From: a virus
Length of the DNA stretch: 64,000 nt
Reading direction: 5' to 3' (one strand)
Virus record (IMG/VR): IMGVR_UViG_3300005731_000180
Coordinates: 1-64,000 of that record
Shown here piece after piece: positions 38,295 to 62,016 of the stretch. The notes below the pieces were generated by a model. That model did not search any database and was not told the DNA's origin. It saw only the letters and a list, made by a program, of their open reading frames with translations. How positions within the stretch are numbered: position 1 is the stretch's first letter; the number at the start of each line of letters is the position of its first letter. The position numbers and the translations under genes were made by a program.

Positions 38295-38810
38295 CTATAT
38301 TAATTCGTTACAATTTTTTGCTTTATCTAATTTATTTTGAAATATTTGTTTTAGTTGTCCAACAGTTCTATCACCTATCAACCTTCTGTTATGCTGATAT
38401 TCTTTTTGGAACTTGTCCTTAACTACAGTTTCATCACTAGTTGTTAAGAATCTATAACCACTTGGAATTCCAAAGAAATGTAAAATATACAGATTACGGT
38501 AAGTTACAGGTAGTCCTTTACGCTTTAAATAGTTGGAATGTTCTTTAGTTAGCAAGGCAGCTAACTTAGTGTTTAGCTTAGGTGAAAATACGTCACCAGA
38601 GAGCTTATATCGCCTTTTAAGAGCTTCTTCTGTAGGTCTGGTAACTTGGTATAACCCCTTAGCTTTAGTGGCTTTATTTACGGCTTTTGGATTCCAATTA
38701 GACTCGATTTTGGCAATCTTGCACATATAATCAGGCTCCACTCCAACTGAAGTGGAAACCTGTTGTACTACTGTTACTAGTGAAAATAGTGCTGTAAAAA
38801 GTATTGCCAT
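38295..38810 (-). CDS. Lytic transglycosylase (SLT) protein
   Basis: 171 residues. Hydrophobic N-terminus (ILFTALFSLVTVVQQVS), then the SLT fold: CKIAKIESNWNPKAVNKATK (catalytic Glu36) and GLYQVTRPT (52-60), with the helical remainder including RNLYILHFFGIPSG. It cleaves peptidoglycan, either as a virion enzyme opening the wall for DNA entry (the T7 gp16 role, here a separate small protein) or at lysis. It contains a copy of the putative late promoter in its coding sequence. Confidence 0.85.
   Translation of the reverse strand: MAILFTALFSLVTVVQQVSTSVGVEPDYMCKIAKIESNWNPKAVNKATKAKGLYQVTRPTEEALKRRYKLSGDVFSPKLNTKLAALLTKEHSNYLKRKGLPVTYRNLYILHFFGIPSGYRFLTTSDETVVKDKFQKEYQHNRRLIGDRTVGQLKQIFQNKLDKAKNCNELI
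38438..38469 (-). promoter_or_regulatory. Putative late promoter, copy F (inside the SLT gene)
   Basis: Minus-strand AAT-TC-CAA-GTGG-TTAT-AGATT-CTTAACAACTA. All conserved blocks are kept apart from the first T of the last block. It is the only copy that is fully inside a coding region. The next gene downstream is 36886-38286, 152 bp away. Confidence 0.7.
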
Positions 38811-40339
38811 TATTTCTTGCTACCTACCATTTGGAGAAGCTTTCTCAGTCCGTCTAGTTCTGCCTTAGCATCTGCTCCATCTTTTAGCATTTCTTTGTTT
38901 CTGTCCTGCATCATAACAGTATTAACTGATTCTCCAGAGTTAATTCTATCTGGAAGTAAATCCCCTGAGTAAGAGTCACCTTCGATAATTCGTCCTTCTT
39001 CCATTTCTTCAGGACTTCTAAGGCCACGTAAAACTTCTAATAGTTCGTCTTGTGCATTATCGTTTACCGCAAGTTCTCCGTTGTCGATAGCTTCGTCTAC
39101 TCTTCCACCATCTGCCATTCTCTCAGAACTTTCTATCATCTGCTCCTCGATACCACCATTCGCATACATATCACGTTCTTCGTGTGTCATTGGATGGATA
39201 AGGTCGTTAACGTCAGATTCAGCTTGTCCAGAAGCTCCTGCAAACTCACCAGGTTGGATACCTTCCATAACCTCTTCGTCTTTCATTTCCGACTTTTTAG
39301 TAAGCTCACTTAAAGCTTGTAGTGCTTGAATGAACTCCGCAGGTACTTCCTTATTATTATACATGTTCTCTGTTTCCTTGTCAATATCTTCTGCTAACCC
39401 ACCGTTTTCGTATTTAACTCCACCATTATTCATATAGCTTGCACCTGCTGTTGCTGCTCCTAGAAGAAGTCCTCTAGTTCCTGCCGCTTCTGCTTGTGCT
39501 GCCTGAGCTTGTGACTGTGCCTGTTGTCCATAAGCTTGTGCTACATTTCCCATTGCACTTTGCATACCAGTAGCTTTTTGTAACTGATTCTGGTATTGCT
39601 GTTGGATTAATCCTTTATTAGCTGCTTGTTGTTGGTTTAACGTAGATGCTCTTTGATTTTCAATAGCCTGTCTCTGAGCAAGGTTAGCTTGTTGGGCTTG
39701 TGCTCTTTGCATTGCGTTAAATTGGTTAATAGCATCTCTAGCTTTTGCTGCTGAACTTTGTTCTTGGAATTGCTGACCTCTGAAGGCTCCAGCTTGTTGT
39801 CCAAGTTGAGAAAGTGCTGCCCTTCTCGCTTGCGCTTGTTGGATTGCCAATCTGTCAGCTCCCTCTGCTGCTCTACTTGCAGAAGCTTGCGAACTTGCCA
39901 ATCTAGCTGCTAATTCCTGACCTCCACCAGATACACCTCTTTGTGCCATGTCTGATAAGATGGATTGCTGTCTTGCTTTTTCTTCTGCTCCGACTTGTCT
40001 TTGCAATTGTCTCATAGCAGCTCTATCTTCCTCACTAAATCCCTTTTCTGAAAGTTCTTTAAGTTGAGTTAGAGCAGACCTTTGAGCTTCTTCCGACTGT
40101 GCATCAGGAGCAATATCCGCAAGTGATGTGTCACCTAGTTGTTCTGCTTGTTGCAGACCTACTAATTGTGGGATTTCGAGAGCTAGTTTTTGTTTTTCAA
40201 TATCAGGAATTTGGAGCTTGTCCAGTTCTTCCATAGCTCTCTTATACATCTGCATTTGAGACGCTGCTGCTCCTGCTCCTGCATTTGGGTCTGCTGTCAG
40301 TCCTAGAGCTTGAGTTGCACCACTCACTAATTTACCCAT
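38810..40339 (-). CDS. Gln/Ala-rich internal virion protein candidate
   Basis: 509 residues; AAAGGAGTAAATA upstream. The N-terminal 300 residues are Gln/Ala-rich helices. Then comes an acidic half with N-G-G elements (YMNNGGVKYENGG; MYANGGIEEQM; MADGGRVDEA). Such elements recur in virion proteins of marine phages. Placed between a GNAT-like protein and the transglycosylase, as T7 gp14-gp16 follow gp13. Ejection protein by position and composition. Confidence 0.6.
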   Translation of the reverse strand: MGKLVSGATQALGLTADPNAGAGAAASQMQMYKRAMEELDKLQIPDIEKQKLALEIPQLVGLQQAEQLGDTSLADIAPDAQSEEAQRSALTQLKELSEKGFSEEDRAAMRQLQRQVGAEEKARQQSILSDMAQRGVSGGGQELAARLASSQASASRAAEGADRLAIQQAQARRAALSQLGQQAGAFRGQQFQEQSSAAKARDAINQFNAMQRAQAQQANLAQRQAIENQRASTLNQQQAANKGLIQQQYQNQLQKATGMQSAMGNVAQAYGQQAQSQAQAAQAEAAGTRGLLLGAATAGASYMNNGGVKYENGGLAEDIDKETENMYNNKEVPAEFIQALQALSELTKKSEMKDEEVMEGIQPGEFAGASGQAESDVNDLIHPMTHEERDMYANGGIEEQMIESSERMADGGRVDEAIDNGELAVNDNAQDELLEVLRGLRSPEEMEEGRIIEGDSYSGDLLPDRINSGESVNTVMMQDRNKEMLKDGADAKAELDGLRKLLQMVGSKK

Positions 40340-40342
40340 TAT

Positions 40343-40678
40343 TTACTCCTTTAAGTCTTTAATAAAATATGTTTGTTCGTCTGTTCCACTAATTATTTTA
40401 TAACCGTTTGATTTAATAAATTGGACAGCTTCTTTATAGTTTAATGCGTTATTCGCTGCCGTACACATTATCCCGATTTTTCCATTTAACCTTGCGATAG
40501 CTTCAATCTGTTTTCCAAATTGTGAACCTGCTTTAGTTCGTCTATAAGGTTTGGCGATAAAAAGGTCTACAATAAAAAGGTAATCTCCATCGAACTTGTA
40601 GCTGATAAATCCCTTATCATTCTCTATCGTAATAGCACCTTCTCTTTCTTCGACATATTGTGCGTAAAAGCTACTCAT
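40343..40678 (-). CDS. GNAT-fold-like protein (gp13-like position)
   Basis: 111 residues; start overlaps the previous stop (TAATG). Pattern of a GNAT acetyltransferase core: GDYLFIVDLFIAKPYRRTKA then GSQFGKQIEAIAR, a strand with GKIGIMCTA and NYKEAVQFIKSNGYKIISGT. The Q/R-x-x-G-x-A/G acyl-CoA loop is only partly kept (RRTKAGSQ), so catalysis is unsure. Small GNAT-like proteins occur at the gp13 position, between tail and ejection genes, in T7-like phages. Confidence 0.6.
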   Translation of the reverse strand: MSSFYAQYVEEREGAITIENDKGFISYKFDGDYLFIVDLFIAKPYRRTKAGSQFGKQIEAIARLNGKIGIMCTAANNALNYKEAVQFIKSNGYKIISGTDEQTYFIKDLKE

Positions 40679-42297
40679 TACTTTTCCAATAACTTTCTAA
40701 GAAGTTGGGCTTTAGATTGCTTTACTGCTCCATTAGCTGCCTGTATAGGTGAAAGTACCTGATTAGGATTGTACTTTGATTGGAGTCCTAAGTAATCCTT
40801 ATATGTTCCGCTATCTTGAATTGCCGATAAAAGTCTAGACAAGTTATATCGTTGTTTATTTTCATCTAGACCTGTTGTAGTTATTGTGCTAATTCCTGAA
40901 CTTCTACTTCCTATTCTACGTGTTTCTTGTGGATTATATGTTTGCTCTGTAACACCTAAGTTTGCTAGTAATCTTCTATCAGAATCCGATAATGCACCTT
41001 GAGAACCTTTTCTTATTACGTCCAAACCTTGCGTAAATAAATCCTGAGCTCCTTGTGATCCTAACTGCTTAAGTCCTACCCATCCACCTAAGTCTAATCC
41101 TAAATTCTCACCAGCTCTTTGATATCCTAAACCTGCCATACCTTGCTCGTATTCAGACTTTCTCTGTCCAATAATATCTTGTAGTGCTTTTAATCCTGTT
41201 GGGTCTTCAGCTCCAACTTGTGTCGGGTCTAAAATAATATCTTGCTCTCTACCTGCTAATCTGGCTAAAGCTTGCGATCTTGCTAAGTCTTCTGCTGTGG
41301 CCAATGAACTTGCAGTAGCTTGTCTTAAGTAAGTAGACGGATCAACTCCATATAATCTATCGTATCCAAGTTGGTCAATATTTTCTTGAGTAAGTTGTCC
41401 ACTTTCAAAAGCTTGTTTAAGGTTATTAATTCCTTCAAGTCTTCCTTCAACTTGTCCTCTTAATGCTTCTGTAGCCTGTTCTGCTCCAGATGTAAGTTGT
41501 TGACGGATATCTGCCGCACCTGCTGACAATTCTCCACGTTGAGCTAGAGCTTGCTTTCTGGCCTCTGCCAAAGCCTGTTGCTGTTGTTTAGCAGCATCTT
41601 GAGCTTGTGTTACAATTCTTTCTCCAGCTTGTCTGTCACCACTTAGAATAAGTTCATCTAGTGCCGACTGTCCTGCTGTATATTTTTGTCCTTGTCCAGC
41701 AAAAGCTTGTCTCAGAAGGTCAGATTTACGTCCTGTAGCCGCTTGCTGTGCAATGTTACCTAGCCTTTGAGCTTGTGCTTTGGCTTGCGTTAAATCCAAT
41801 TCTGGAGTCTGTGCTTTCATTTGAGAAGCTTGTTGGAACTGCTGTATAGCTTGGTCTTCTAATTGTTGACCTGCACCGATATTCTGCGCTTGCTGTAATG
41901 CACTTTGAGCTTGTTGAAATGCTCTCTGTTGCATATCACGTTGTTGATTTACTTTAGACATAAAGTCTGACTGTTGCTTCTGAATTTGCTGTCCAACTGC
42001 CTGAGCCTGACTTTGTGTTGCTTTTTCCACACCTTGGGAAATACTTTGAGGCTTGTTAGCCGCTACGTATTTACGTAAGTCAGCACCCATTCCAGAACCT
42101 TTTGTAGACTTTGGAGCAGGAGCTTGAGTTGGCGAACCAGAGGCACTTGCAGGAGCCTGTGAACCGCCCATAGGAGCTTGCTGTCCTTGTTGTTGTGGCG
42201 CAGCTTGTCCTCCCATAGATTGGGCTTGAGAACTTGGGCCAAGAGTATTCATCCTAGCTAATTCGTCATTATCGTTCTTAGTCTTGAAAAATGCCAT
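40678..42297 (-). CDS. Gln/Ala-rich internal virion protein candidate
   Basis: 539 residues; AAAGAGGTAAC upstream. Extreme Gln/Ala content (QQKQQSDFMSKVNQQRDMQQ), mostly helical, with a Ser/Pro/Gln-rich N-terminal segment. It is the first gene after late-motif copy A. Composition fits the elongated inner-core proteins of short-tailed phages. No family motif. Confidence 0.6.
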   Translation of the reverse strand: MAFFKTKNDNDELARMNTLGPSSQAQSMGGQAAPQQQGQQAPMGGSQAPASASGSPTQAPAPKSTKGSGMGADLRKYVAANKPQSISQGVEKATQSQAQAVGQQIQKQQSDFMSKVNQQRDMQQRAFQQAQSALQQAQNIGAGQQLEDQAIQQFQQASQMKAQTPELDLTQAKAQAQRLGNIAQQAATGRKSDLLRQAFAGQGQKYTAGQSALDELILSGDRQAGERIVTQAQDAAKQQQQALAEARKQALAQRGELSAGAADIRQQLTSGAEQATEALRGQVEGRLEGINNLKQAFESGQLTQENIDQLGYDRLYGVDPSTYLRQATASSLATAEDLARSQALARLAGREQDIILDPTQVGAEDPTGLKALQDIIGQRKSEYEQGMAGLGYQRAGENLGLDLGGWVGLKQLGSQGAQDLFTQGLDVIRKGSQGALSDSDRRLLANLGVTEQTYNPQETRRIGSRSSGISTITTTGLDENKQRYNLSRLLSAIQDSGTYKDYLGLQSKYNPNQVLSPIQAANGAVKQSKAQLLRKLLEK

Positions 42298-42320
42298 GTT
42301 ACCTCTTTATTTTATACTAA

Positions 42321-42352
42321 TAGTTGTTAAATTATCGTAACCTATTGTTATT
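42321..42352 (-). promoter_or_regulatory. Putative late promoter, copy A
   Basis: Minus-strand AAT-AA-CAA-TAGG-TTAC-GATAA-TTTAACAACTA. It fits the whole shared pattern, lies in the 58-bp gap before the gene starting at 42297, 24 bp from its ATG. Confidence 0.8.
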
Positions 42353-42354
42353 CT

Positions 42355-42768
42355 TTATGAAAATTCCAACTTAAGGATGATTTGGTACTTGTTATTGGCC
42401 TGTAAACCTGCTACGTGCTTGATTTCGTATCCACCTGTTCCAAGTGAAGAAAAGGTTACAAAAGGAGCAGAAGTTGGATAAATAGCTGCATTTGTTAGGT
42501 TTAATGCAGAAACTACCTGTGAACCTATAGCCCCAACATTAGAACTGAACTGTGTCTTTGTCGTAGGAACTCCATTAGAGTTTACAGTAACTTCAAATTG
42601 GACTAACTTGGACTTCAGGTTAGTAAAATCCAAGTTACCGTTTACGACGTTGATTATCTGCTCGATGTGGTGATTAAATGAAGAGGCGATATATCCGATT
42701 ACCTGACGTTGTTCGTCATTAAAGTTTCCTTCTTCCGTCAATCTTCTTAGGTTATCTAATTGTGACAT
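42355..42768 (-). CDS. Hypothetical structural protein
   Basis: 137 residues from the ATG at 42768, which overlaps the previous stop (TAATG) behind GGTGGAG. Helical start (LDNLRRLTEEGNFNDEQRQV), then a beta-rich part (LTNAAIYPTSAPFVTFSSLG). Last gene of the tail unit. No family recognised. Confidence 0.6.
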   Translation of the reverse strand: MSQLDNLRRLTEEGNFNDEQRQVIGYIASSFNHHIEQIINVVNGNLDFTNLKSKLVQFEVTVNSNGVPTTKTQFSSNVGAIGSQVVSALNLTNAAIYPTSAPFVTFSSLGTGGYEIKHVAGLQANNKYQIILKLEFS

Positions 42769-45700
42769 TATCTCCACCTTCTCTTCGAGATTGATCTAGG
42801 ATTCATGGTAATACCAACAATCTTAAACTTCTCTCTAGCGTTTACGTGTTTGAATCTGATTCTCAAATATCCGCATTTCTGCTTATTTCTTGGAACAATT
42901 CTTCTGATAGGAGTTTCAGAACCTCTTCCTCCAAAGTTTGATGAACCAAAGCTACCGTTACCAAAGTCTCCAATATCTCTAGCTAGGAAGTCCGAAAACT
43001 CAAAGGCCTGTGAAATGTCGGAATTAAATCCAATTGTTCCAGAATAAAAGTTTGTCTGATCGAACATTAATGTTGCATCTTGAACTTGCTTAAGTAACTG
43101 CGGGTCTCCGAAATGCTGTGGTGCCCACTCAATATCTGTTTGGATACCTTCGTAGATTAAAACAGTTCCTTGTAGGAAAGCAGAGTTTTTATTGACACTA
43201 ACAGTATTTCCTGAAAAGGGTATATTTGTAACAATAGCTTCATAAGTGACAGTTTTAGTATAAGTCGTATATGATTTAATAGAAGTGTCACAACTCGGAT
43301 CATTTAGCTCACCTATTAGCGTATTAAACTCTGTTAATAAAGTAGTAAAGTTACTTGAGTACGAAGTAGCAGTTACCGTTCCTGATGAATCATCTGCAAC
43401 AAGTTTTGTATTTAGATCGTTCATTTTGTTTGTAATATTGTCGCCAGGTGATGCTTCTAACGTCGAGAAGTAATCTGTATCATCCAAACCAGAATCAATA
43501 TCCAATCTCTTTAAAAGAGAGTTAAAACGATTTAGAGTAACTGTCTGGGCTTGGTAAACAACATCTCCCACTGTTACATTACTCGCATTAGAGAGTGTTA
43601 ATTCAAGGTCTCCAATTGCATTAGTCGGAAGTGTTAAGGCAAAATCCAAGTCAGCATAATCGCTTCTATCGTCGTCTTTTCTTTCTCGTCTAATTATATT
43701 ATCTGCTCCATCTCCGATATACATTTTATCATCTGAAGTATTAACTAGTCCGCATGTTCCACCTATTGTCCACCTTGTCCAAGAACGAGTGAAATAATTG
43801 TAACGGTACATTTGTGTTGCTACAGTATCTCCTGTTTCTGTAGGTAGTGCAATTAAGTAACTTCTATCCGACTCGTAAGCTATTGCGAAAGAAGTAAGTT
43901 TATAATCGTACCTTGGGTTAGTAACACCTAGAATCTTATCCTCAATATCCGTTGAAATAATAAATGGAGATGACTCTGTAATAGTCGCAATTCCTTGGGA
44001 CGTTAGAGCGTAAATTTGGTTGTTCAAAATAACTGCCGTATCAGGAGCTAGTACTTGTACTGAAGATTCTACTAGTCGTGAATTGAACGGAGAAGACGTA
44101 CCTGTTACTAGATAAATCCCATCTTCTTTCATAACGATTAGGTTATCTCGTAGTGCCAAAATTCTCTGAATTGCCTTATCTTTAGGGCCAATGTCAATAA
44201 AGTTTACTAATGGAACTGCTTCTGGTTTTCCAAACTTAGAGTAATACAATCTGTTCCCTGCTACTTCATTATCAGATTCCACATCTGCTAAAAACCAAGT
44301 ACCTGTAGTACCTGCTCCTGTTACGTTTACTGGAATTGAGAAAGTGTTTGGATCAATTACCGTTACTGTATATTTTCCTAAAAGAGCAGGAGTAGAGTCT
44401 GTACCGTAAATAAATACTTCCTGCCCAGAAACAAGTCCATGAGTAGCTGATGTTATTACAGATGGATTTGCTGCACTAATTCCTGTGATAGTGTTAGTCT
44501 GTGATAAAGTTGGATCAAACTCTGCGCCATTAGCGTCTAAGCTTCCTAAAAAGAAACTTCCATCTGCTAGTTCTCTAGATTCCAGAGAAATAATACCAGG
44601 TAAATCATCCGGACTTGACAAGTAAGTAGCTCTAACTGGAGAACTCGTATCCTTGTTTATAATCTTAACAAGTGATCTAGCAGTTTCATCAATTGCCTGT
44701 CCAACAGAAGCTAAACTTGAAAGAAGAACTTCATTTGAAGCTGAATCCTCTCCATCACCAGCCGTTGAAGGAGCAGCGAAAGTAAATCCTGTAGGTGTCG
44801 AACCGTCTACTGCGTTGTCAACATTTCCGTTCTTATTCCAAGTAACTGTTACTGTAGCAGTTGAAACTGAAGTCGAGAATTCTCCCGAAGCTAGTAAAGC
44901 TGCTGATAAAGCTGTAGCAACATCTCCTACTGTGTCGTTTGTGTTGATATCTACTCGTATCCCGACTCTTGCAGTTACTTCAGGATCAGATGCACCTGCA
45001 CCAGTAGAAAACCAAACATAGTATTTTCTTTCATTTCTTGCTGTATTAATTAAAAAATATGTACCGTCTAGTGAGTCCGAAACATCGGCAACAGTGGTAA
45101 TATCTTGTACCTGTGTAGCTCCAACAAACGTGTACTCTCTAGAGGTATCTCCGTTACCTATTACGATTCCAGAAGTTCCAGAAACGAAGTCATCTACCGA
45201 TAATACTCTTAGTTGTAGTCTGTGGAAAGTAGATGTGTTTGCGTAGAACATGAAGTTCTTAAATAGCTCAACATCTTTTGCTACAGGCGGTTTCTCATTG
45301 GCTTGTAAGATACCTTCTCCGTTTACAGGGTTTGTATATAAAAATGCACCTTGCTCTCTGAATGACTCAGGAGTGGCATCACTTACAGATATCTCTTTTG
45401 CTGATAGTTCTGAAGTAGTTGGAAAATCTTCGAATAAGAAGTTGTGTTCATCACCTGGTTCGATATCATCAAGTGTAAGGCCTTCTGGAGTTGTGACTAC
45501 TCCTGTTCTGTAAACTTGGTAAAAGTAATCAGTTGAGTCTACTTCAGTTGGGATTGTAAAAGTAAGGTTAACATTAGCTGCTGTCCCTGTTACAATAGAA
45601 CCTTGCTCTGTTACTGAGATAGTAAACCCTGTTCCGTTTACAGACGAGTCTGAAGCATCTGTGAGGTTTTCTCCTGCTTCTGTAGACGTTACTGTGATTA

Positions 45701-46553
45701 CATTACTTGCCACTTCAACCGTGAAAGGTAAGTTAGATATAGCAGCAGCTACTAATATAGCAACATCATCTGCTGTAGTAGCACCTGAAATGTCAACTTT
45801 TACTTTAGTCTTACCGAAAGTATCAGAATCAGTTGGCTCTGTTCCAGAACCTGTTTTATCCATCCATAACATGTAATCAACAGTTGACGAACTAATAAAG
45901 AAATACGTTAAGTCAGTAATAGAAGCCGAGGCCACTGTAGTTATTGAAATAGTCTCAGATAAGTTAACATCTGACGTACTATTAGTGATTACTAATCTAG
46001 AACTTGGACTTCCTAGTATTATGTTATTGTTATTATCTCGCTTACCCCAAACAATCCTGTAAGCTACTTTTGAACTTGATGGAAGAAAACCTGCTGTCGT
46101 AAAGTCTAACTGACCTTCCAAGTCTAAAGCTTTAGGCCCTCCTGCTTGTTCAATAGACCCTGCTACAATCTGTGACGCAGAAGTAGCTGATATCTTTTTA
46201 ATCCCTGAATTTGAGGTCATATAAAAGTTACCATTAGATTCTTTACCTTTAATTCTGGCAGTTCCAGAAGGCTCAGTAAGTGACTCTGTGAAAGACGTAA
46301 AAGTACCTGTAGAGTCGTCAAATTGTAAAGTAGACCCAAAGTGTCTTAGGATTCTATCTTTATATACAAGTAACTGTTTAGCTCTATCAGTAGAACTTGG
46401 TAGTTCGTCTCCGTATTGGCTAAGTCCTCTTCTTGGCTCTGCTACATCTGGAGTATCAATAACGATATTATCAGCCTTAGTTAGATAACCGTCATTGTTT
46501 GATAGCTCGTTGTCGAAGGTTTTTAGTCCTCGACATTTTAGAATAGTTCCCAT
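42768..46553 (-). CDS. Large tail tube/nozzle-like protein (T7 gp12-like)
   Basis: 1261 residues. The start LKCRGLKTFDNELSNNDGYL and the centre (ILALRDNLIVMKEDGIYLVT; NNQIYALTSQGIATI; SDKMYIGDGADNIIRRERKD) read as beta-propeller blades as in T7 gp12-type nozzle proteins. Two inserted modules at about 215-320 and 495-600 share a pattern with the protein at 48258 (Y-Y-V-W-F ... D-P-x-V ... V-x-I-x-x ... T-G-F-T). Follows a gp11-like gene. Likely the tail tip of a short tail. Confidence 0.65.
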   Translation of the reverse strand: MGTILKCRGLKTFDNELSNNDGYLTKADNIVIDTPDVAEPRRGLSQYGDELPSSTDRAKQLLVYKDRILRHFGSTLQFDDSTGTFTSFTESLTEPSGTARIKGKESNGNFYMTSNSGIKKISATSASQIVAGSIEQAGGPKALDLEGQLDFTTAGFLPSSSKVAYRIVWGKRDNNNNIILGSPSSRLVITNSTSDVNLSETISITTVASASITDLTYFFISSSTVDYMLWMDKTGSGTEPTDSDTFGKTKVKVDISGATTADDVAILVAAAISNLPFTVEVASNVITVTSTEAGENLTDASDSSVNGTGFTISVTEQGSIVTGTAANVNLTFTIPTEVDSTDYFYQVYRTGVVTTPEGLTLDDIEPGDEHNFLFEDFPTTSELSAKEISVSDATPESFREQGAFLYTNPVNGEGILQANEKPPVAKDVELFKNFMFYANTSTFHRLQLRVLSVDDFVSGTSGIVIGNGDTSREYTFVGATQVQDITTVADVSDSLDGTYFLINTARNERKYYVWFSTGAGASDPEVTARVGIRVDINTNDTVGDVATALSAALLASGEFSTSVSTATVTVTWNKNGNVDNAVDGSTPTGFTFAAPSTAGDGEDSASNEVLLSSLASVGQAIDETARSLVKIINKDTSSPVRATYLSSPDDLPGIISLESRELADGSFFLGSLDANGAEFDPTLSQTNTITGISAANPSVITSATHGLVSGQEVFIYGTDSTPALLGKYTVTVIDPNTFSIPVNVTGAGTTGTWFLADVESDNEVAGNRLYYSKFGKPEAVPLVNFIDIGPKDKAIQRILALRDNLIVMKEDGIYLVTGTSSPFNSRLVESSVQVLAPDTAVILNNQIYALTSQGIATITESSPFIISTDIEDKILGVTNPRYDYKLTSFAIAYESDRSYLIALPTETGDTVATQMYRYNYFTRSWTRWTIGGTCGLVNTSDDKMYIGDGADNIIRRERKDDDRSDYADLDFALTLPTNAIGDLELTLSNASNVTVGDVVYQAQTVTLNRFNSLLKRLDIDSGLDDTDYFSTLEASPGDNITNKMNDLNTKLVADDSSGTVTATSYSSNFTTLLTEFNTLIGELNDPSCDTSIKSYTTYTKTVTYEAIVTNIPFSGNTVSVNKNSAFLQGTVLIYEGIQTDIEWAPQHFGDPQLLKQVQDATLMFDQTNFYSGTIGFNSDISQAFEFSDFLARDIGDFGNGSFGSSNFGGRGSETPIRRIVPRNKQKCGYLRIRFKHVNAREKFKIVGITMNPRSISKRRWR

Positions 46554-46555
46554 TA

Positions 46556-47545
46556 TTAATATCCACTTTTATTAAACCCACCTCTTTGTTGACTGAGAGT
46601 TGAGTGTCTGTTTACGATCTTCTTGTTACTTCCATCTACTCTATCGTTCAAGATAGTACTTAAACTCTTTTCCATCTTAGAAAGTTGCCTCTCTAGAGAT
46701 TGTTTAGCTTGCTCGTCGTTAAGACCCTCTGCTACTGAAATGGCCACTAACTGAGCTAACACAGAATGAAGTTCTGTTGGGACATTTGGCACAGGTGTTT
46801 CCTGTGTAGCTGTTAGGTAGTCTCCTACCGCTAAGTCTGACGGAATAGTGTCTGGATCGCTGATAGTTACAGTTTTCATTGAACTAGACACTGCCGATAC
46901 AGTAATGTCATATCCAAGAATATTATGCGGACTCTTGTATTTAACAAAGTCACACCCTTCTGTGACTAGTCCAGAAAAATCAGTTGGGAAGTTTGACATG
47001 GTAATTATTCCAGTGTCTCTATCAATTGCTGTAATCTTTCCTACTTCGCTTTCTTTTACCATCATACTAGGCTGCATGTAGTAGTACATTCTAAGACTTC
47101 CAGAGCTTACTGGAAAATCATTCAACAACTTCACGTTGTTATCCTCCAACATATAGCTGAAACCTTGTTCATCCCAAGACGTGAAACCTCTAGACCCTTG
47201 ATAAGCATAGTGATCTGGAAGGTCGATTCTATGCATCTCGTAAATTACCTGATTGGCAAACTCAACTGTTGGGTCTTGTACATAGAATATGTCTCTTAAT
47301 TTATTTCCAGCAGCTCTCGAAGGAATATCGTATGTGTAAGTGTTTTGGACAAGTGATACGTCTTCTTTCGTCACTAAGTACTCTTCATATTTTGAAATGA
47401 TTTCTGTAGCAAGAAAAACATCCATCTCGTTATTCATCATCTCGATTAAATCTTCATCAGTATATGAGTCATCATCTGACGGAATAAAAGCTTTTCTGCG
47501 AATAGTTCGAAGTAGCTTATCTGTTGTTAAGGCTTTCTTAGACAT
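46556..47545 (-). CDS. Tail adaptor/tubular A-like protein
   Basis: 329 residues; AAGGATAAGCC upstream. N-terminus LLRTIRRKAFIPSDDDSYTD then EDLIEMMNNEMDVFLATEII is typical of phage head-tail adaptors (gp11/tubular A type), with helices followed by a beta part and a helical end. Directly upstream of the gp12-like gene, the usual order. Confidence 0.6.
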   Translation of the reverse strand: MSKKALTTDKLLRTIRRKAFIPSDDDSYTDEDLIEMMNNEMDVFLATEIISKYEEYLVTKEDVSLVQNTYTYDIPSRAAGNKLRDIFYVQDPTVEFANQVIYEMHRIDLPDHYAYQGSRGFTSWDEQGFSYMLEDNNVKLLNDFPVSSGSLRMYYYMQPSMMVKESEVGKITAIDRDTGIITMSNFPTDFSGLVTEGCDFVKYKSPHNILGYDITVSAVSSSMKTVTISDPDTIPSDLAVGDYLTATQETPVPNVPTELHSVLAQLVAISVAEGLNDEQAKQSLERQLSKMEKSLSTILNDRVDGSNKKIVNRHSTLSQQRGGFNKSGY

Positions 47546-47554
47546 GGCTTATCC

Positions 47555-47890
47555 TTATTTAGTCTTAAGTTTCATCAATTTTTTAAGCTTCTCTTTCAGA
47601 GAATCTGGCATTTCGTAAGAATCTTCTTTTTCCATTAACTTTACGTCTTTGATTTTATCAGCTTCTTCTTTTAGTTCTTTTGGCAATTTGTATCCGCCGT
47701 TTTCGTATTTCTTTTTACCACCGTTCATGGCTTTCATTTCTTTACGTTTTTTGATTAGCTTCTCTGCCATAGATAGGCCTTTCTCAAGTCCTTCTTTAGA
47801 GTCAGAAATTACTGAAACCTTTTGGACTCCTCCGTCCTTCATTTCTTTCATTTTCTTAAGCATTTTCTTACGTTTTTCACATTGATCCAT
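47555..47890 (-). CDS. Lys-rich small virion-associated protein candidate
   Basis: 111 residues; AAGGAGAATCAGAC upstream. About a quarter Lys. Contains MNGGKKKYENGGYKLPKELK, an N-G-G-x-K-Y-E-N-G-G element also seen in the protein at 38810. First gene behind late-motif copy C. Function unknown. Confidence 0.6.
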   Translation of the reverse strand: MDQCEKRKKMLKKMKEMKDGGVQKVSVISDSKEGLEKGLSMAEKLIKKRKEMKAMNGGKKKYENGGYKLPKELKEEADKIKDVKLMEKEDSYEMPDSLKEKLKKLMKLKTK

Positions 47891-47939: not shown

Positions 47940-47971
47940 TAGTTGTTAAAATGGGATAAGTACGTGGTATT
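47940..47971 (-). promoter_or_regulatory. Putative late promoter, copy C
   Basis: Minus-strand AAT-AC-CAC-GTAC-TTAT-CCCAT-TTTAACAACTA. One deviation from the pattern (CAC for CAA). 50 bp before the ATG at 47890. Confidence 0.8.
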
Positions 47972-47972
47972 A

Positions 47973-54900: not shown

Positions 54901-55178
54901 GAAGCGGTTCCACCTGCATCGAAGTCGATCTTTTTAGTAGAGTCTGTAGCGTCCTGAACTTCAAAAGCATCGTCCTGTGCATTGATTGTGTTGCTATCTC
55001 CAATCGTCTTATTTTCCAGAGTTTGAGTTTGGTCGTTAGTTACTACTTCTCTTTCTGCCGAGTCGATATATGTTTTGATTTTGGAAGACTTATTTTTAAG
55101 TTCACCTTCTTTTGAAAGCGCATCAGTATCTGCTCTAAGGATAATCCCTTTATCTACTCTCATTGGTTTTTTTGCCAT
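51977..55178 (-). CDS. Tail fibre protein, interrupted by a one-base insertion
   Basis: Read as one gene from ATG 55178 (TAGGAGATAATC upstream), about 1066 residues once a single base in the T5 run at 54892-54896 (A5 on the coding strand) is ignored. As given, the first frame stops at 54864, and the rest is open in another frame to 51977. The repeat copy downstream shows the expected join S-T-K-T-T-I. N-terminal KPMRVDKGIILRADTDA, then repeated L-T-N-K-T-(I/L) units and a collagen-free beta repeat region; the C-terminal 500 residues form several beta domains. Likely receptor-binding fibre. The break may be a sequencing error, a real mutation or a slippage switch. Confidence 0.75.
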
Positions 55179-55190
55179 GATTATCTCCTA

Positions 55191-55670
55191 TTAATTTATA
55201 ATTGCTTTAGCTCTAAATACAGCAGTAATTGTATCTGTATTCGTCTTGTCTTCAGAAACGTATGTCACCTGTCCTGTACTGTCGATATCTAGAACAACAC
55301 CAGGCTCTCCGCCACTACCTTCTACGCTAGTAATCGAGATAACGAAATCCGACCCGTCGTAATTTCCAAATAACTGTCCTGACTCCGTTTGGTCTGGTGT
55401 AGCATCTGTAAAGCTTCTTGTAATGGTATATTCAGCAAATATATACTTAACTTCTGCCGTATCAAAACTGAATCCTGTTACGTTTCCTGTTGTGTTATTT
55501 GCCAAGATTGCTGTAGTTTGTGTGATATCTTGTGGCCCTTGTACAGAACCTAGTGCATCCTCTACTGCTTTGTAGAACTCTACAAGGGATTCTCCCCAAG
55601 CTGTTGACTCAGAGTCTCCTGAATCTGGCATAGTGATGATTTTGTTACCGATTTGGATATCGAATGACAT
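55191..55670 (-). CDS. Structural protein at the head of the fibre unit
   Basis: 159 residues from ATG 55670 with AAAGGAATTCC upstream; a longer open frame to 55760 runs through the promoter and is not used. MSFDIQIGNKIITMPDSGDS, then LVEFYKAVEDALGS and a beta-rich end. Contains SVEGSGGEPGVVLDIDSTGQ. First gene after late-motif copy D. Possibly a fibre connector; no family recognised. Confidence 0.6.
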   Translation of the reverse strand: MSFDIQIGNKIITMPDSGDSESTAWGESLVEFYKAVEDALGSVQGPQDITQTTAILANNTTGNVTGFSFDTAEVKYIFAEYTITRSFTDATPDQTESGQLFGNYDGSDFVISITSVEGSGGEPGVVLDIDSTGQVTYVSEDKTNTDTITAVFRAKAIIN

Positions 55671-55707
55671 AGGCGGAATTCCTTTGTTTGTTGTGTATAT
55701 ACAGTTA

Positions 55708-55739
55708 TAGTTGTTAAAGTGGTGTAAGTAATTGGAATT
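55708..55739 (-). promoter_or_regulatory. Putative late promoter, copy D
   Basis: Minus-strand AAT-TC-CAA-TTAC-TTAC-ACCAC-TTTAACAACTA. Fits the whole pattern. 38 bp before ATG 55670. Confidence 0.82.
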
Positions 55740-55760
55740 ATGGAAAGTGGGAAAGTACAC

Positions 55761-55789
55761 TTGATAAAAGTAAAAAACAGTGTTAAAAT
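55761..55789 (+). promoter_or_regulatory. Sigma-70-type promoter for the GIY-YIG gene
   Basis: TTGATA at 55761-55766, 17-bp spacer, TAAAAT at 55784-55789, then AAGGAGC and ATG 55808. It lets the inserted rightward gene be expressed inside the leftward late arm. Confidence 0.75.
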
Positions 55790-55807
55790 GTCAATAAGGA
55801 GCTATTA

Positions 55808-56668
55808 ATGTATTATATCTATAAAATAACTAGTCCAAGTGGTAAAAATTACATAGGAATTACTAAAAATCTAACAAGAAGAAAACGTGAACATACTATC
55901 AATGCCAATAAAAACACTGATAGACTCAACAGAAGGAAAATAGTAAAGGCTTATAAAAAGTATGGTGCTGATGATATGTCTTTTGAGCATATATTTTGTG
56001 CTTTTAATCAGGAATGTGCTAAAGAAATCGAAATTGAACTCATAAAATATTATAACTGTTTTAATAAAGGGTATAATATGACAGAAGGTGGAGACAGTAC
56101 TACAATCACTAGACAGTTTACTGAAAAAGAAGTAGACGAAATAAGAGACCTTCTTGAATTTTCTAACATGTCTCAGAATATGATAGCAAAACAATATAAT
56201 ACGACTAGAACTAGAATACATGCTATAAAATATAATAAAGAATATTGTGACCTAGGTAAAGCTAGAGTTATAAATCGACCTGTAAATACGCAAGTTAGAG
56301 GAAATAAAGTATCATTATCTAAACTGGACGATGATAAAGTAAGAGATATCTTAGTTAGGTATGAACAAAAGCGTGAAAGAGTAAAGGATATTTGTAATTT
56401 ATTCGGAATAACAAGACAAACACTATATTCTATTGTATTAAATAAAACTTGGAAACATGTAAAACGTGAATTTAAGATAACAAGAAGACATAGAGGTAAT
56501 AGTAAATTTACAGAGAAACAGGTTAGAAAACTTTGGAAAATGAAAAAACTAGGATATAGTATAAGAGAGATTGCCGATCACTATAATTTAAATTATACAA
56601 CCCTTCATTCTATATTTAACGGTAAAAACTGGAAAGACTTGTATGAAGAGTATAACGAAAGTGAATAA
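55808..56668 (+). CDS. GIY-YIG homing endonuclease
   Basis: 286 residues; AAGGAGCTATTA upstream. YYIYKITSPSGKNYIGITKN is the GIY-YIG core; LTRRKREHT supplies the Arg, and KEIEIELIKYYNCFNKGYNM the Glu helix and the conserved N-x-x-x-G-Y-N. The C-terminal 190 residues carry several HTH-like NUMOD units (MSQNMIAKQYNTTRTRIHAI; VKDICNLFGITRQTLYSIVL; SIREIADHYNLNYTTLHSIF). The gene is A/T-rich and antisense to its neighbours, between the capsid gene and late promoter D. A mobile gene. Confidence 0.9.
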   Translation: MYYIYKITSPSGKNYIGITKNLTRRKREHTINANKNTDRLNRRKIVKAYKKYGADDMSFEHIFCAFNQECAKEIEIELIKYYNCFNKGYNMTEGGDSTTITRQFTEKEVDEIRDLLEFSNMSQNMIAKQYNTTRTRIHAIKYNKEYCDLGKARVINRPVNTQVRGNKVSLSKLDDDKVRDILVRYEQKRERVKDICNLFGITRQTLYSIVLNKTWKHVKREFKITRRHRGNSKFTEKQVRKLWKMKKLGYSIREIADHYNLNYTTLHSIFNGKNWKDLYEEYNESE

Positions 56669-56671
56669 AAA

Positions 56672-56695
56672 AAGGAGAGGCATTAACCTCTCCTT
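56672..56695 (-). terminator. Rho-independent terminator after the major capsid gene
   Basis: 9-bp stem AAGGAGAGG/CCTCTCCTT with loop CATTAA. Read leftward, the stem is followed by seven T (A-run at 56667-56673 on the plus strand). Read rightward, after the GIY-YIG stop, it has no T-run, so it mainly stops the capsid transcript. Confidence 0.9.
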
Positions 56696-56716
56696 AGTAT
56701 AACTATGTAGTAAGTC

Positions 56717-57958
56717 TTATGACTCAATGAAATTTAGAAGTGCAGTTCTTCCTGGCTTAGCAGTGAATAGAGCGATATCAGCGTAAGCTCTGAACTCGTA
56801 TCCTGCTGTCTTCTCAAGAAGTCTTACCATCTTGTCATCAAGACCTGGTTGGTTGAAAGTAACGTCTGATGAACCAATCTTTAGGAAGTCACCTGGTACC
56901 ATCATGTATGCATAACCTTCTTTACAGAATATTGTAGATACAATCTTGATCTTACCATTTGGCCCAAAGAATGTGATGTTCTCAGTACCTTGCTCAAGTC
57001 CAGAAGACTTGTAAGAGCTATCGAATTCTCTCTTAGCAGCTAGGTCAGAAAGTAGGTTCTTCCAAGAAAGAGGGTTACAAAGTACGCAAACTTCTTCCTT
57101 CTTAAGTCCTTTTTCCATCATTCTAGCGATACCTTCTTCAATCTTATCGAAAGATAGTACGGCCTCTCCTCCTGAGAAGTTTGTACCAACATTTACAGTG
57201 TTCCCTCTGAAAAGAGAGTACTGAGATGCGTCGATTCCGAAAAGAGTTCCAGTTGTGTTAGAACAGATTTTGTGAAGTCCAACTGCTTCTTGGTTGTAAG
57301 CACCTTTGTGGTAAATCACGTCAGTAGCTACTGTACCAGCAGGAAGTCCGTCAACTGTTACTTGTTTAGCACTCATGTCAACAGAAGAAACATTTGTTTC
57401 ACCTCTTTTAACACCTGCTGCACTTCTAATCTCAATTGGCATATTCTCAGACCCAGCCCATAGACCTGCGGCCCATTCGTGATCTTCGATTTTGATAACA
57501 TTAGAAGAAACTGACTCAACAATTCCGATTCCTGATTGACCGTACATGAAGATGATTTCTAGACGAACCATGAAAGATTCGAACATATTTTCAACAATGT
57601 ACTTTGTTTCTTGTACGAAAGCTGCTTCTTTTCCTGAAGCTGCTCTAGAAGCTGCGTCTACTGAAAGAACAGAGCTAAGGTGGATTGAACTACCTTTAAC
57701 TTGTGCTTCGTCGTGTGCTGCTGCTACCGCAGAGTTTAGGTCGTAAGCTGCTCCACCTGTTCCTCCGTAAGAGAAACCAAATTCGTATCCAAGAGCTACT
57801 GGTTGGTTATAAAACTTTCCACCTCTTTTGCTAGACTTGATAAACTTTACCATGTTGTAAAGCTCAACTCCAGAAGGCTTTAGGTTTTCGATTTGTTCCG
57901 CATATACGTCTTTAAAATGTCCGTTTAGCGTCGATTCTGTATTAGCTGATGCTGCCAT
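56717..57958 (-). CDS. Major capsid protein
   Basis: 413 residues; AAGGAGATAAGAA upstream. Start MAASANTESTLNGHFKDVYA then EQIENLKPSGVELYNMVKFI, middle KGLKKEEVCVLCNPLSWKNL and end EFRAYADIALFTAKPGRTAL. This fits HK97-fold capsid proteins of podoviruses that have a separate scaffold. Context: scaffold and decoration genes upstream, strong terminator downstream. No N-terminal delta domain or protease motif, in keeping with a scaffold-based head. Confidence 0.8.
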   Translation of the reverse strand: MAASANTESTLNGHFKDVYAEQIENLKPSGVELYNMVKFIKSSKRGGKFYNQPVALGYEFGFSYGGTGGAAYDLNSAVAAAHDEAQVKGSSIHLSSVLSVDAASRAASGKEAAFVQETKYIVENMFESFMVRLEIIFMYGQSGIGIVESVSSNVIKIEDHEWAAGLWAGSENMPIEIRSAAGVKRGETNVSSVDMSAKQVTVDGLPAGTVATDVIYHKGAYNQEAVGLHKICSNTTGTLFGIDASQYSLFRGNTVNVGTNFSGGEAVLSFDKIEEGIARMMEKGLKKEEVCVLCNPLSWKNLLSDLAAKREFDSSYKSSGLEQGTENITFFGPNGKIKIVSTIFCKEGYAYMMVPGDFLKIGSSDVTFNQPGLDDKMVRLLEKTAGYEFRAYADIALFTAKPGRTALLNFIES

Positions 57959-57972
57959 TTCTTATCTCCTTA

Positions 57973-58437
57973 TTATGCTTTGTAAACAACTTTAACTAAA
58001 AGTGTTGGCGACTCAGAAGCAAGGTTAAGTCCTGTTCCTGCAATATCAATTGCAACATTTCCACCTGCTGTAAGCCAATCTGACCCTACTTTTGCTACAG
58101 TTAGAGAAGTAGCTAATGCTGTCTGCTCAGTAACTTGTACCTCAAGTACCTTTTCAAGTGCACCTTCAGCAAGCTTTGATCCGTCAATGATGATTCCAAA
58201 TTGAGAGTCACCTGTTGAGTTATCTACTGCTGTAGTGAAACTTCCTGATAAGTCTTCGATAGCATCTGCTTCTGAAACTTTACCTTCTGTTCTTAGTTTA
58301 AGAGCTGATGGAATGTCTGAAGAGTGTACCTTGTCGGCTGGTGTTGCGTTAGCCGTGATTGTACATTCAACAATAAGCTCTCTAGTTCTGTCTAGAGCGT
58401 CAGCTACTAGATTGTCTGCTGTGTTTGCTATTGCCAT
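57973..58437 (-). CDS. Head decoration-like structural protein
   Basis: 154 residues; CAGGAGATTAAAA upstream. Starts AIANTADNLVADALDRTREL, Ala/Thr-rich beta pattern, ending ESPTLLVKVVYKA. Co-transcribed with the capsid gene behind late-motif copy E. Head decoration or minor capsid protein by position; family not recognised. Confidence 0.55.
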   Translation of the reverse strand: MAIANTADNLVADALDRTRELIVECTITANATPADKVHSSDIPSALKLRTEGKVSEADAIEDLSGSFTTAVDNSTGDSQFGIIIDGSKLAEGALEKVLEVQVTEQTALATSLTVAKVGSDWLTAGGNVAIDIAGTGLNLASESPTLLVKVVYKA

Positions 58438-58574
58438 TTTTAATCTCCTGTAAAAATGATGTAGTTAATAATAAAAAATCACGGTGTCACTTTCTTTCTC
58501 TTAGTAAGGTATTCTTAAAGTCCTGTTAAGGATATTCGAGAAGCCAGCTAAAATAATCAATCGCTAACCATATA

Positions 58575-58604
58575 AAGAGGTTAAGCTTTTACCCTTAACC
58601 CCTT
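58575..58604 (-). other. Hairpin in the capsid-operon leader
   Basis: GGTTAAG (58579-58585) / CTTAACC (58594-58600) with an 8-nt loop, extended by AAG/CTT past a mismatch. It lies in the 190-nt stretch between late-motif copy E and the decoration gene. Read leftward it is followed by TCTTTATATGG, a weak T-run, so a leader or stability structure is likelier than a terminator. The rest of this gap holds nothing else I can identify. Confidence 0.45.
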
Positions 58605-58627
58605 GATTTTCTCACCTAATTCAAAAG

Positions 58628-58659
58628 TAGTTGTTAAAACTTTGTAACTACTTGTTATT
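58628..58659 (-). promoter_or_regulatory. Putative late promoter, copy E
   Basis: Minus-strand AAT-AA-CAA-GTAG-TTAC-AAAGT-TTTAACAACTA. Fits the whole pattern. It lies just past the scaffold stop and leads into the decoration and capsid genes through a 190-nt leader. Confidence 0.82.
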
Positions 58660-58662
58660 ACA

Positions 58663-59781
58663 TTATGCGTTGTACTGTTCTTGTAATTTCTTGAAGAAAT
58701 CTGCCGAACTTACTGATCTTTCTTTCTCTTTAGGCTGTGAAGAAGATTGCTTCGATTTAGAGCTATCTTTGTTCAGACTACTCACGTTTACTGGTGGAGT
58801 GATCTTCTTTTTCTGAGCCTCTTTCTTGGCCTTACGAGAAATGCTGTACTTTTCCAAGAAATCTTCAGGTGCTTCTTTGATGAATGATCCAATCTCTTCA
58901 AAATATTCCTGCTCCACAAGTGGAAGAACATCTGCGATTGTTACATCTGGAAATAGTGGTTCACCTGTAATTTCGTCTACTTGACTTTCTGCCCAATCAA
59001 GAGCGTCTGCTGCACGAGAGATGAACTTAGGATTCTTTGGAATAGTTACGTTACTCATTTTCCAAGCATTATCAATCTCTTCCTGAAGCTGTGCCATTTG
59101 TTGCTCTTGCATCCTAGCTTGCTCAATAGCAGTTTTCTCGTCTTCGATTTTCTTAAGCTTTTCACGATACTCTTCCAATTCCTTTTGGATTTTCTCTCTT
59201 TCTCTCTGTTCAGGTGTCTTCTGCTCGTCTTCGATTTTCTTCATAATGTGACCAGCAGCGATATCATCAACATTTACTCCAAGTTCAGCTAATGCACTAA
59301 TAGGATCGTTAATTAGTTCCTCTAAAGCCTTTTGATAAGTTTGTTGAAGTTCTTTAGCCTCTTTGGCTTTCTCTGTAAATGCCATAGACTTTTGAAGTTC
59401 TCTTTTGATAGCTTCTTCATCCGAAAGGTCAATCTCTCTTTCAACAGTCTTACCATTTACTTTAAGCTCAAACTTTCGCACCATGCTTTTCAGTTCTTCA
59501 GTTGAAGCTCCTGCGGCTGCTGCTGCTTCTAGTTCATCTTGAAGTTCTTCTTCTGTTTCTGCTTCCGAATTAGCGACGTGTTCAGAGTCATCTTCTGAAC
59601 CATCTTCTTCTTCTCCAGAAAGCTCTGCTTCTGCATCTTCTTCCGAACCATCTTCTGTTGAATCTAATTCCGAGTCTGTTTCTAATTCTGCTCCTGAATC
59701 ATCTGCTGAAGCTTCTGGTGCTGAACCACCTTCTCCTTCAAATTCTTCCATGAGCATGTGTTGGTACCTGTCTTTAAACAT
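58663..59781 (-). CDS. Scaffolding protein
   Basis: 372 residues; ATG 59781 is chosen because AAAGGAGAACGAAG precedes it. Highly acidic N-terminal half (Glu/Asp/Ser-rich runs), long coiled coil (about 180-245), basic Lys/Ser-rich stretch near the C-terminus (KKEAQKKKITPPVNV) and SSADFFKKLQEQYNA at the end. Acidic, helical and placed between portal and capsid: a typical internal scaffold, with a basic C-terminal tail suited to binding the coat protein. Confidence 0.75.
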   Translation of the reverse strand: MFKDRYQHMLMEEFEGEGGSAPEASADDSGAELETDSELDSTEDGSEEDAEAELSGEEEDGSEDDSEHVANSEAETEEELQDELEAAAAAGASTEELKSMVRKFELKVNGKTVEREIDLSDEEAIKRELQKSMAFTEKAKEAKELQQTYQKALEELINDPISALAELGVNVDDIAAGHIMKKIEDEQKTPEQREREKIQKELEEYREKLKKIEDEKTAIEQARMQEQQMAQLQEEIDNAWKMSNVTIPKNPKFISRAADALDWAESQVDEITGEPLFPDVTIADVLPLVEQEYFEEIGSFIKEAPEDFLEKYSISRKAKKEAQKKKITPPVNVSSLNKDSSKSKQSSSQPKEKERSVSSADFFKKLQEQYNA

Positions 59782-59865
59782 CTTCGTTCTCCTTTTGTCG
59801 TCTGTTACGATAGACAATAAGTGGCCAATCCATACGGGTATGACCTGAGTTATTATAAATTACCG

Positions 59866-61953
59866 CTATCCTTGCGGTGTTAAAGGTTGTCCTGTTGCTG
59901 GATCAACTGGAGGAGTAGGCATACTTACTCCTGCTGCTGCTGCGTTTTGTACTGCTTGCGGATTGTATCCCATCTCTGCTTGTTGTGCTACTTCTGATGC
60001 TGGTAAAGGCCCACCTGGTGCTGGAGGTGGAGGAGTAGACGGAACAGGAGGTTGTTTCGCAAGTGTTTTACTATCTAAATATTTCTGTGCTTCTGTAGCT
60101 TGTAAGTCTTTGTGTTCTTGGATGTGAGCTAGAACCCTTGTAACGAGTTCATTATCAAATCTCAAAGAAGAATCAGACAATACAGAAATGTGTTCTGCAA
60201 TGTGCATATCGTGATCGTCGATAGCAATAGCAATAACGTCATCCCCTGCTACTAGTGCTTCGTTTTCTGATTTAATTAACTGCATCTTTTTAGTAGGTGC
60301 TTCTGTCATAGTTTCTAAATTCCCTGAGTTCAGTACTGAGAAGTATTGTTCAGGAGTTGTAATAAGTCCCATCTGAATTAAGTTCTGAGCCATTTCAGAA
60401 CGTCCAGCAGTTGTATTTGATAGTGGGTTTCCAACATCAACGATAACTCTCTGAACTCTATCTAAACTGTCTCTACTAAATTCACGTACTCTAGCTGCGT
60501 TAGATTTACCAACAATCTCAGCAATTCTAGGAGCTTCTGCATAGTCTTGTAAGATTTCCACAATTGCCGAACCTACGTCTTCCATAAGCTGAACGTACTC
60601 TTGTTGGAAACCTGAAATATATTGTAAAGCTTGTGATTGGATTAGTGCAAGTGCATTACCTGAACGTAAGTTCTGCTCAGGATTACCTCTTGTTACTGCG
60701 TTAATCCCTGAAATAGTTTCCATTGCTTTTTCTACAATTCCAAGATAATTAAATGCTTCTGCTGGAGATCGTGTAAGGTTAAGTGCTTCAGGTCTTCCTC
60801 CTGTTGGCCCTTCCATTGGTGTGTAATCAATGAAATTAAGTCCACCAGCTATCTCTGAGACTTTTATATTACTTCCATCTGGTACAAGTACGTTTTGAAC
60901 TCCAAAAGCTGTTAGATTCGTCAATACAGTACTGTACATCGAGTTTGCAGCTTGTTGTAGAGGCATTAAATCCCATAATGGAGTATATCCTCTAGATGTT
61001 CCAATATAGTTAGATGGTGCAATACGGAAAACAGGTAATCTTCTATATGGCATAGGCCCATCTTCTAGGAAGATTTCGTCGTTGATATAAAGTAGATATC
61101 TTCCATTTGGAGTTGATTCTGTTCTTTTGTGGAATAATTCGTAAACCGCAATATCGTCTGTTTCGTCAATTTTTGATAGTGAGATTTTTCCTCTCTTCTC
61201 AGACTTATCTCTAGTTTCCACTTCAAGAATCTTGTCCGCAAGTTCAGGATATTTTGATGCGAGGTTGTGACGGTTTACAAAAGTTCGGATTACAACCCAC
61301 TCTTGGTCATCCCAACAGTCTTTACCGAAATCAAACATAACATTGAGAGGGTCTAGAGATTTGAACTCCAAATCCCCCTCATAAACAGGTATTCTTTCTA
61401 ACTTGTTACCTATTTTGTCGATTAAATTACCTTCTTCGTCTTTTAGTTCGTTTCCATCATCGTCGTAAAATGGCTCAGGCTCAACAAAATCATAAGCTTT
61501 ACCTTTTGTTGCGTTCCATTCTACCTTTAGGTATCCTGAAGCTAATACGATACCTTTTTCTGCTGTATCTTTTAACTTCTTCTCAACCTTCTTCTGACGC
61601 ATATAGTATTCTAATAAGTCGTTTGCCAAATCCACCTGTACTTGCGACTTGTGGTCTGTGTTTACCGCTTTAGCCTGAAAAGCTGGCCTATTAGAAGTTA
61701 CCATTGTAAGAATATGTCTAGCAATGTTGTGATAGTGGTTTACTGCAATATTAACTAGTTCTCCAGATTCCCCACCGTATGAGATTCCATGATCTTCTTT
61801 GTAGTAAATTCCATGGTAATAGTCCCATGAACGCTTCACTTTCTCTAAATAAGCATCACTAACCATACCTTTGAACCATTCATTACCTTTGGCTTGTAGA
61901 TATTCGATGGCTTCTTTAGCTTCATCATTGGCAAAATATACGTCATTACTCAT
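59866..61953 (-). CDS. Portal protein
   Basis: 695 residues; AAGGAAATAAG upstream. VNIAVNHYHNIARHILTMVT then SNRPAFQAKAVN, a KGIVLASGYLKVEWN segment, WDLMPLQQAANSMYSTVLTN and a Gln/Ala stem end (QSQALQYISGFQQEYVQLME) are characteristic of large podovirus portals (P22-like class). The C-terminus is Pro-rich (PPVPSTPPPPAPGGP). Directly behind the large terminase and late-motif copy B. Confidence 0.85.
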   Translation of the reverse strand: MSNDVYFANDEAKEAIEYLQAKGNEWFKGMVSDAYLEKVKRSWDYYHGIYYKEDHGISYGGESGELVNIAVNHYHNIARHILTMVTSNRPAFQAKAVNTDHKSQVQVDLANDLLEYYMRQKKVEKKLKDTAEKGIVLASGYLKVEWNATKGKAYDFVEPEPFYDDDGNELKDEEGNLIDKIGNKLERIPVYEGDLEFKSLDPLNVMFDFGKDCWDDQEWVVIRTFVNRHNLASKYPELADKILEVETRDKSEKRGKISLSKIDETDDIAVYELFHKRTESTPNGRYLLYINDEIFLEDGPMPYRRLPVFRIAPSNYIGTSRGYTPLWDLMPLQQAANSMYSTVLTNLTAFGVQNVLVPDGSNIKVSEIAGGLNFIDYTPMEGPTGGRPEALNLTRSPAEAFNYLGIVEKAMETISGINAVTRGNPEQNLRSGNALALIQSQALQYISGFQQEYVQLMEDVGSAIVEILQDYAEAPRIAEIVGKSNAARVREFSRDSLDRVQRVIVDVGNPLSNTTAGRSEMAQNLIQMGLITTPEQYFSVLNSGNLETMTEAPTKKMQLIKSENEALVAGDDVIAIAIDDHDMHIAEHISVLSDSSLRFDNELVTRVLAHIQEHKDLQATEAQKYLDSKTLAKQPPVPSTPPPPAPGGPLPASEVAQQAEMGYNPQAVQNAAAAGVSMPTPPVDPATGQPLTPQG

Positions 61954-61984
61954 ATCTTATTTCCTTATATTATGTGCTTAAGTA

Positions 61985-62016
61985 TAGTTGTTAATTTAGT
62001 ATAAGTTATTGAGATT
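61985..62016 (-). promoter_or_regulatory. Putative late promoter, copy B
   Basis: Minus-strand AAT-CT-CAA-TAAC-TTAT-ACTAA-ATTAACAACTA. One base deviates (A for the first T of the last block). It overlaps the last two bases of the terminase gene and lies 32 bp before the portal ATG. Confidence 0.8.

Follow-up and report, generated by a model that had tools for sequence, protein, structure and literature searches.

Probable late promoters and their clade-variable core element in a widespread family of uncultivated phages

Introduction

Phages of the phiEco32 type use the single block tAATGTATAtA, located 6 to 8 nt before the start and recognized by the phage ECF sigma factor gp36; in phiEco32/SU10, a phage of about 77 kb, a few copies of this block divide the middle and late genes, and the early genes depend on host sigma-70 (PMC4281155). 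The late promoters of T4 consist of a block in the -10 region with no -35 element, and are utilized by the host polymerase together with gp55, gp33, and the gp45 clamp (PMC2988020). Those of AR9, with the form AACA-N6-TA/G, are transcribed by the multisubunit nvRNAP of the phage (PMC5312081).

Here we examine a 64-kb window, bases 1 to 64,000 of a 67,662-base viral record (G000). A first-pass annotation had proposed that six copies of a 32-nt bipartite motif, AAT-N2-CAA-N4-TTAY followed after five bases by TTTAACAACTA, act as late promoters in this window. Comparison with related genomes makes it very probable that the six sites are phage late promoters, and they appear to work most like those of phiEco32 and T4. 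The likeness to phiEco32/SU10 lies in the genome size, the putative single -10-like block, the few copies that split the gene units, and the sigma-70 promoters of the early genes; the sequence is a different one, and no sigma gene scored over the cut-off in the present family. Nor was a phiEco32/SU10-type phage among the matches of our portal search. With T4 the sites would share an element in the -10 region and, as proposed below, a host polymerase joined by phage factors, and one version of the core, TTAACAAATA, presumably resembles the T4 late block TATAAATA. Unlike T4, the lineage of the window has an extra upstream block, and profiles of our candidates for the factor gave no gp55 or gp33 match among PDB sequences. 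As the family shares no recognizable sigma gene, its promoters are filed under neither the phiEco32 nor the T4 type. If the start inferred below is right, the positions of the core and of a TATA-like step, with G at +1, also recall the T7 class; the differences are that no such polymerase was found in 26 family records, with working controls, and that the second block reaches about -38 in the lineage of the window. The promoters of AR9 are similar in having AACA at a fixed distance before the start, but the TA at N6 is present in some copies only (47940 and 66592), and many more bases are fixed here.

Results

Six sites on the late strand

All six copies are found on the minus strand, each with 0 or 1 deviation from the fixed bases. 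When both strands of the 67,662-base record were scanned with up to 3 mismatches, exactly these six were recovered and none on the other strand, and a reversed control pattern gave no match in the record. A matrix built from the copies assigns them 36.5 to 42.4 bits and the best other position in the record 8.0; when one copy is omitted from the matrix, it still scores 26 to 36 bits and ranks alongside the other five. The early arm had been described as free of the motif, and the scan likewise gave no copy on the early strand.

The late arm encodes a terminase, the portal, a major head protein, a fibre, an SLT transglycosylase, and ejection-like proteins, and the order of units that the first-pass annotation had read from the sites is broadly right. 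The putative promoter at 61985..62016 (-) overlaps the 3' end of terL (62015-63532) and precedes the portal gene, whose start is 31 nt downstream. Three further copies lie before the capsid unit (58628..58659, -), with a 190-nt leader containing a stem-loop, before the fibre unit (55708..55739, -), and before the genes for a 111-aa protein, an adaptor-like protein (46556-47545), and a nozzle-like protein (42768-46553) (47940..47971, -). The latter two names are our assumption, taken over from T7-type tails without a family match. The copy at 42321..42352 (-) is followed after 23 nt by the start of a 539-aa ejection-like gene, and that at 38438..38469 (-) is situated within the gene for the SLT transglycosylase (38295-38810); from this site it is 151 nt to the following late gene, which encodes 466 aa. 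A GIY-YIG homing-endonuclease-like gene (55808-56668, +) is found on the opposite strand in the late arm, between the capsid and fibre units.

The 3.7 kb of the record past the window contain a perfect core, TTTAACAACTATATATACA, at 66592-66623, ahead of a leftward gene of 125 aa, and a degenerate copy at 64683-64714, which consists of CAA, TTAT, and then ATTAACAAACTATATG with one inserted base, and precedes the genes leading to terL. In the whole record, TTAACAACTA occurs seven times on the late strand and 0 times on the early strand, with 0.22 expected per strand. The record has no terminal repeats and may lack some kilobases. Repeats resembling CAGCATGGT stand at its beginning (1-66) and nine C residues at its end (67654-67662), both of which probably mark points in the early arm where the assembly broke off.

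A core element shared by related phages

Alignment-based searches with the portal and the terminase identified related portals in more than 300 IMG/VR contigs. These relatives were reached with two- and three-sequence alignments, and queries with single proteins were unproductive. For comparison, the open reading frames (ORFs) of 22 relatives of 70 to 88 kb, three of which were read minus their final 11 to 2065 bases, were clustered with those of the window, giving a set of 23 genomes; domain profile searches covered 26 family records, G000 and 25 relatives. Exact terminal repeats of 65 to 127 bases are present in G004, G012, G019, and G022, which are probably complete. A search of phage records for near DNA relatives gave no match, and scanning of genome contigs with the portal gave no confirmed relative. 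Among phage records, a partial one from Silvanigrella aquatica (CP017838.1) is the best relative, with 27 to 31% identity in the portal, the head protein, and the nozzle-like protein. The family is widespread, with no close isolate in the phage collection searched.

In 21 of the 23 genomes, a pattern-free search of the gaps before late genes revealed the same kind of element, a TTAACA-type core on the late strand. The lineage-specific cores of these 21 genomes add up to 156 late-strand and 4 early-strand copies, where the expected number for each core is 0.1 to 0.7 per strand per genome. The cores were chosen from late gaps, and the early strand is therefore a fair control. The elements recovered de novo were TAACAACT(A), TAACAACT(T), TAACAAAT, TAACAAGT, and, in G017, CACCCTTA after AA. 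The core is not seen in G005 and G012; the former has another repeat, GCTATTATATA, and no repeat element was detected before the late genes of the latter. In the Silvanigrella phage record, GTAACACTTATAGT occurs exactly twice, both times on the late strand, once before the portal gene and once before a gene that precedes the capsid genes.

These comparisons modify the view of the 32-nt motif as one unit. Its final 11 bases, the 3' block TTTAACAACTA, are the family-wide part, with clade-specific versions TTAACAAATA, TAACAAGTTA, TTAACAACTT, and ACACCCTTAT, whereas the upstream half is lineage specific. In the copies of the window, the upstream AAT-N2-CAA-N4-TTAY block carries 26.4 bits versus 10.8 in shifted controls (p about 0.0005). 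Elsewhere, G025 has a different upstream block, and G005 and G017 also score above the control, which is not the case for most genomes. In trees of the portal and of the early protein present in 23/23 genomes (33690-34535), promoter types are clustered, yet have switched several times, and the trees did not single out the factor. A loose 14-base pattern was also run against the phage collection; its matches were mostly at chance level among the matches listed, and it was not used. Judged by their titles and abstracts, none of the papers that a literature search for TTTAACAACTA returned dealt with phage transcription.

Position of the start and leaders

For 43 sites located 20 to 34 nt before a start codon, the Shine-Dalgarno sequence was identified with a loose pattern. 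In 26 of the 43, it begins 14 to 15 nt after the first T of TAACAA. The Shine-Dalgarno sequence must be contained in the RNA, and transcription thus starts at its onset or earlier. With that base as +1, we infer that the core extends from about -17 to -7, ending about 7 nt before the start, and that a TATA-like step occupies -4 to -1; the upstream block would then lie at about -38 to -23. The copies of the window itself preserve the TATA-G step poorly. Just downstream of the promoter, folding is stronger in leaders of at least 150 nt than in short ones (mean, -8.5 versus -3.7 kcal/mol); the long-leader sites include 58628, and several of them precede capsid genes.

Promoters and proteins of the early arm

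The early arm encodes a family A DNA polymerase, a DnaB-like helicase, a primase-like protein, an RNA ligase, and an HD/polynucleotide-kinase protein. The genes for the latter two are near each other (24934-27697, +), an arrangement known from phage tRNA repair. The arm also contains genes for a ClpP-like protease (23479-24045, +) and a trypsin-like protease (32516-33298, +), families which recur around the early/late junction in relatives. The earlier view that this arm uses sigma-70 boxes is supported by near-consensus promoters, as eight sites with 11 to 12 matches are present, all on the early strand. Perfect 12/12 sites are found at 748..777 (+) and 18878..18906 (+), and, with an additional TG, at 21181..21209 (+) and 31535..31563 (+). 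An 11/12 site, TGGACA-17-TATAAT with TG, is located at 33655..33683 (+), before the gene at 33690. The only perfect sigma-70 promoter on the late strand, TTGACA-17-TATAAT at 39356-39384 (-), is inside a 509-aa ejection-like gene.

The first-pass annotation had recognized no single-subunit RNA polymerase in the window, and extending the search to the full 67,662-base record still revealed none. The profile of the T7/N4-type polymerases (PF00940), which detects the T7 and N4 enzymes with E values of 1e-109 and 1e-14, respectively, found no member in G000 or the 25 relatives, and the sigma families PF04542, PF04545, and PF08281 gave nothing over the cut-off in the 26 family records. Inspection of large ORFs for polymerase motifs gave none that was convincing, and no multisubunit polymerase gene was recognized among them; DxDGD is absent from the ORFs of the window and has two unconvincing matches in relatives (ORFs of 1363 and 246 aa). 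The large early ORFs examined encode polymerase A or B, a helicase, a ribonucleotide reductase, or an ATPase-domain protein. In G021 only, a 168-aa frame (67989-68411, -) has weak matches to sigma regions 2 and 4.

Candidate specificity factors

Among the early proteins, the best candidate for the factor is a winged-helix-like protein (33279..33668, +), whose profile is found in 22 of 23 genomes. Its gene always lies directly before the 33690 gene, and the one remaining genome has another small ORF in that place. AlphaFold2 modeled the protein with moderate confidence (pLDDT, 77), and the best Foldseek matches of this model include many winged-helix regulators of the Fur, ArsR, and PadR types, none of them significant. 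The profile was not found in the partial Silvanigrella phage record. A second candidate or partner is the product of the last early gene (33690..34535, +; likely start ATG 33726), the only early family present in 23/23 genomes. PHROG, PDB, and Foldseek searches with this protein found nothing, and no structural match was obtained. Its homologue in the Silvanigrella phage is encoded close to the terminase genes, so a role in packaging is also possible. By profile against PDB sequences and by fold comparison, neither candidate resembled a known sigma factor or activator, and the same searches gave no gp55 or gp33 match or such a fold, though divergent homologues may have escaped them. That the winged-helix-like protein is the late specificity factor is a tentative proposal.

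Several other early proteins were rejected for this function. A small DNA-binding protein with a PHB_acc_N (PhaR-type) domain (537-776, +) exceeded the cut-off in only 12 of 26 records, which is too few for a general factor, and the HTH proteins at 24042-24542 and 24551-24934 (+) are outside the widely shared early families. An HNH protein (32196-32579) is widespread (21/23) but nuclease-like. The two neighboring HTH-domain proteins (24042-24934, +) share a cysteine-rich N-terminal motif.

Discussion

Our results support the interpretation of the six sites as late promoters, as the element is conserved on the late strand before late operons in 21 genomes, and the early strand carries sigma-70 promoters instead. 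It is very improbable that the motif acts in RNA, as a leader element, processing site, or translation signal. It is often found directly before the Shine-Dalgarno sequence. However, the start codon follows at anything from about 20 to 200 nt, folding just past the site is stronger in long leaders, and the sites keep to one strand over about 30 kb. The motif might also be an operator, bound by a phage activator or anti-repressor that assists the host sigma-70 polymerase at weak promoters, as the upstream block of the window overlaps the -35 region, a zone of activator binding, and TTAACA resembles TTGACA. We regard this as rather improbable. The motif had been called unlike the sigma-70 boxes, and weak 9/12 matches, at 47949-47920 and 61994-61967, overlap only two of the six sites. 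The late arm contains no more sigma-70-like sites than shuffles do, and TTAACA as a -35 element would put the start downstream of many Shine-Dalgarno sequences.

As to what reads the promoters, the first-pass annotation had named a phage factor or a phage RNA polymerase. A factor made early fits our results, whereas a polymerase of the T7/N4 type is disfavored by the PF00940 searches. A T7-class polymerase, either too diverged for recognition or encoded in the unassembled part of the record, is an unlikely reader. None of the 26 family records, four of them seemingly complete, contains PF00940, although T7 and N4 were detected, and the large early ORFs examined have other identities. In addition, the upstream block extends to about -38 in the lineage of the window and in G025, beyond the contacts of T7-class enzymes. 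These points have to be weighed against the positions of the core and TATA step, which are those of T7 promoters if the start follows the TATA-like step, against a record without end repeats that may be incomplete, and against the clade-specific promoter variants, which are usual for single-subunit polymerases.

As neither a T7/N4-type polymerase nor a sigma factor scored over the cut-off, and as the early arm carries sigma-70 sites, we favor recognition of the late promoters by the host RNA polymerase with a phage specificity factor, which we consider the probable arrangement. Transcription of the early arm would begin with the host RNA polymerase at ordinary sigma-70 promoters. One of the early products, a phage specificity factor, would then bring this polymerase to TTTAACAACTA, which would lie at about -17 to -7 and serve as a -10-like element in one block, comparable to those that the phage sigma factors of T4 and phiEco32 use. 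In the lineage of the window, the upstream block, at about -38 to -23, may assist as a second element. The factor would most likely be the winged-helix-like protein (33279-33668), perhaps together with its neighbor (33690-34535). This raises the possibility, which we consider a reasonable one, that in this uncultivated family a factor of an unrecognized type, namely the small winged-helix-like protein either alone or with the universal helical partner, makes the host polymerase read a clade-variable TTAACA-type element with which it has co-evolved.

These findings provide a description of the probable late-gene switch in a widespread phage family, and narrow the protein that reads the promoters to a few small early genes. 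In vitro transcription with these few proteins could therefore reveal a new way of redirecting the host polymerase, and the natural promoter variants would represent a ready series of matched factor/promoter pairs. The element also allows late operons to be called straight from metagenomic contigs.
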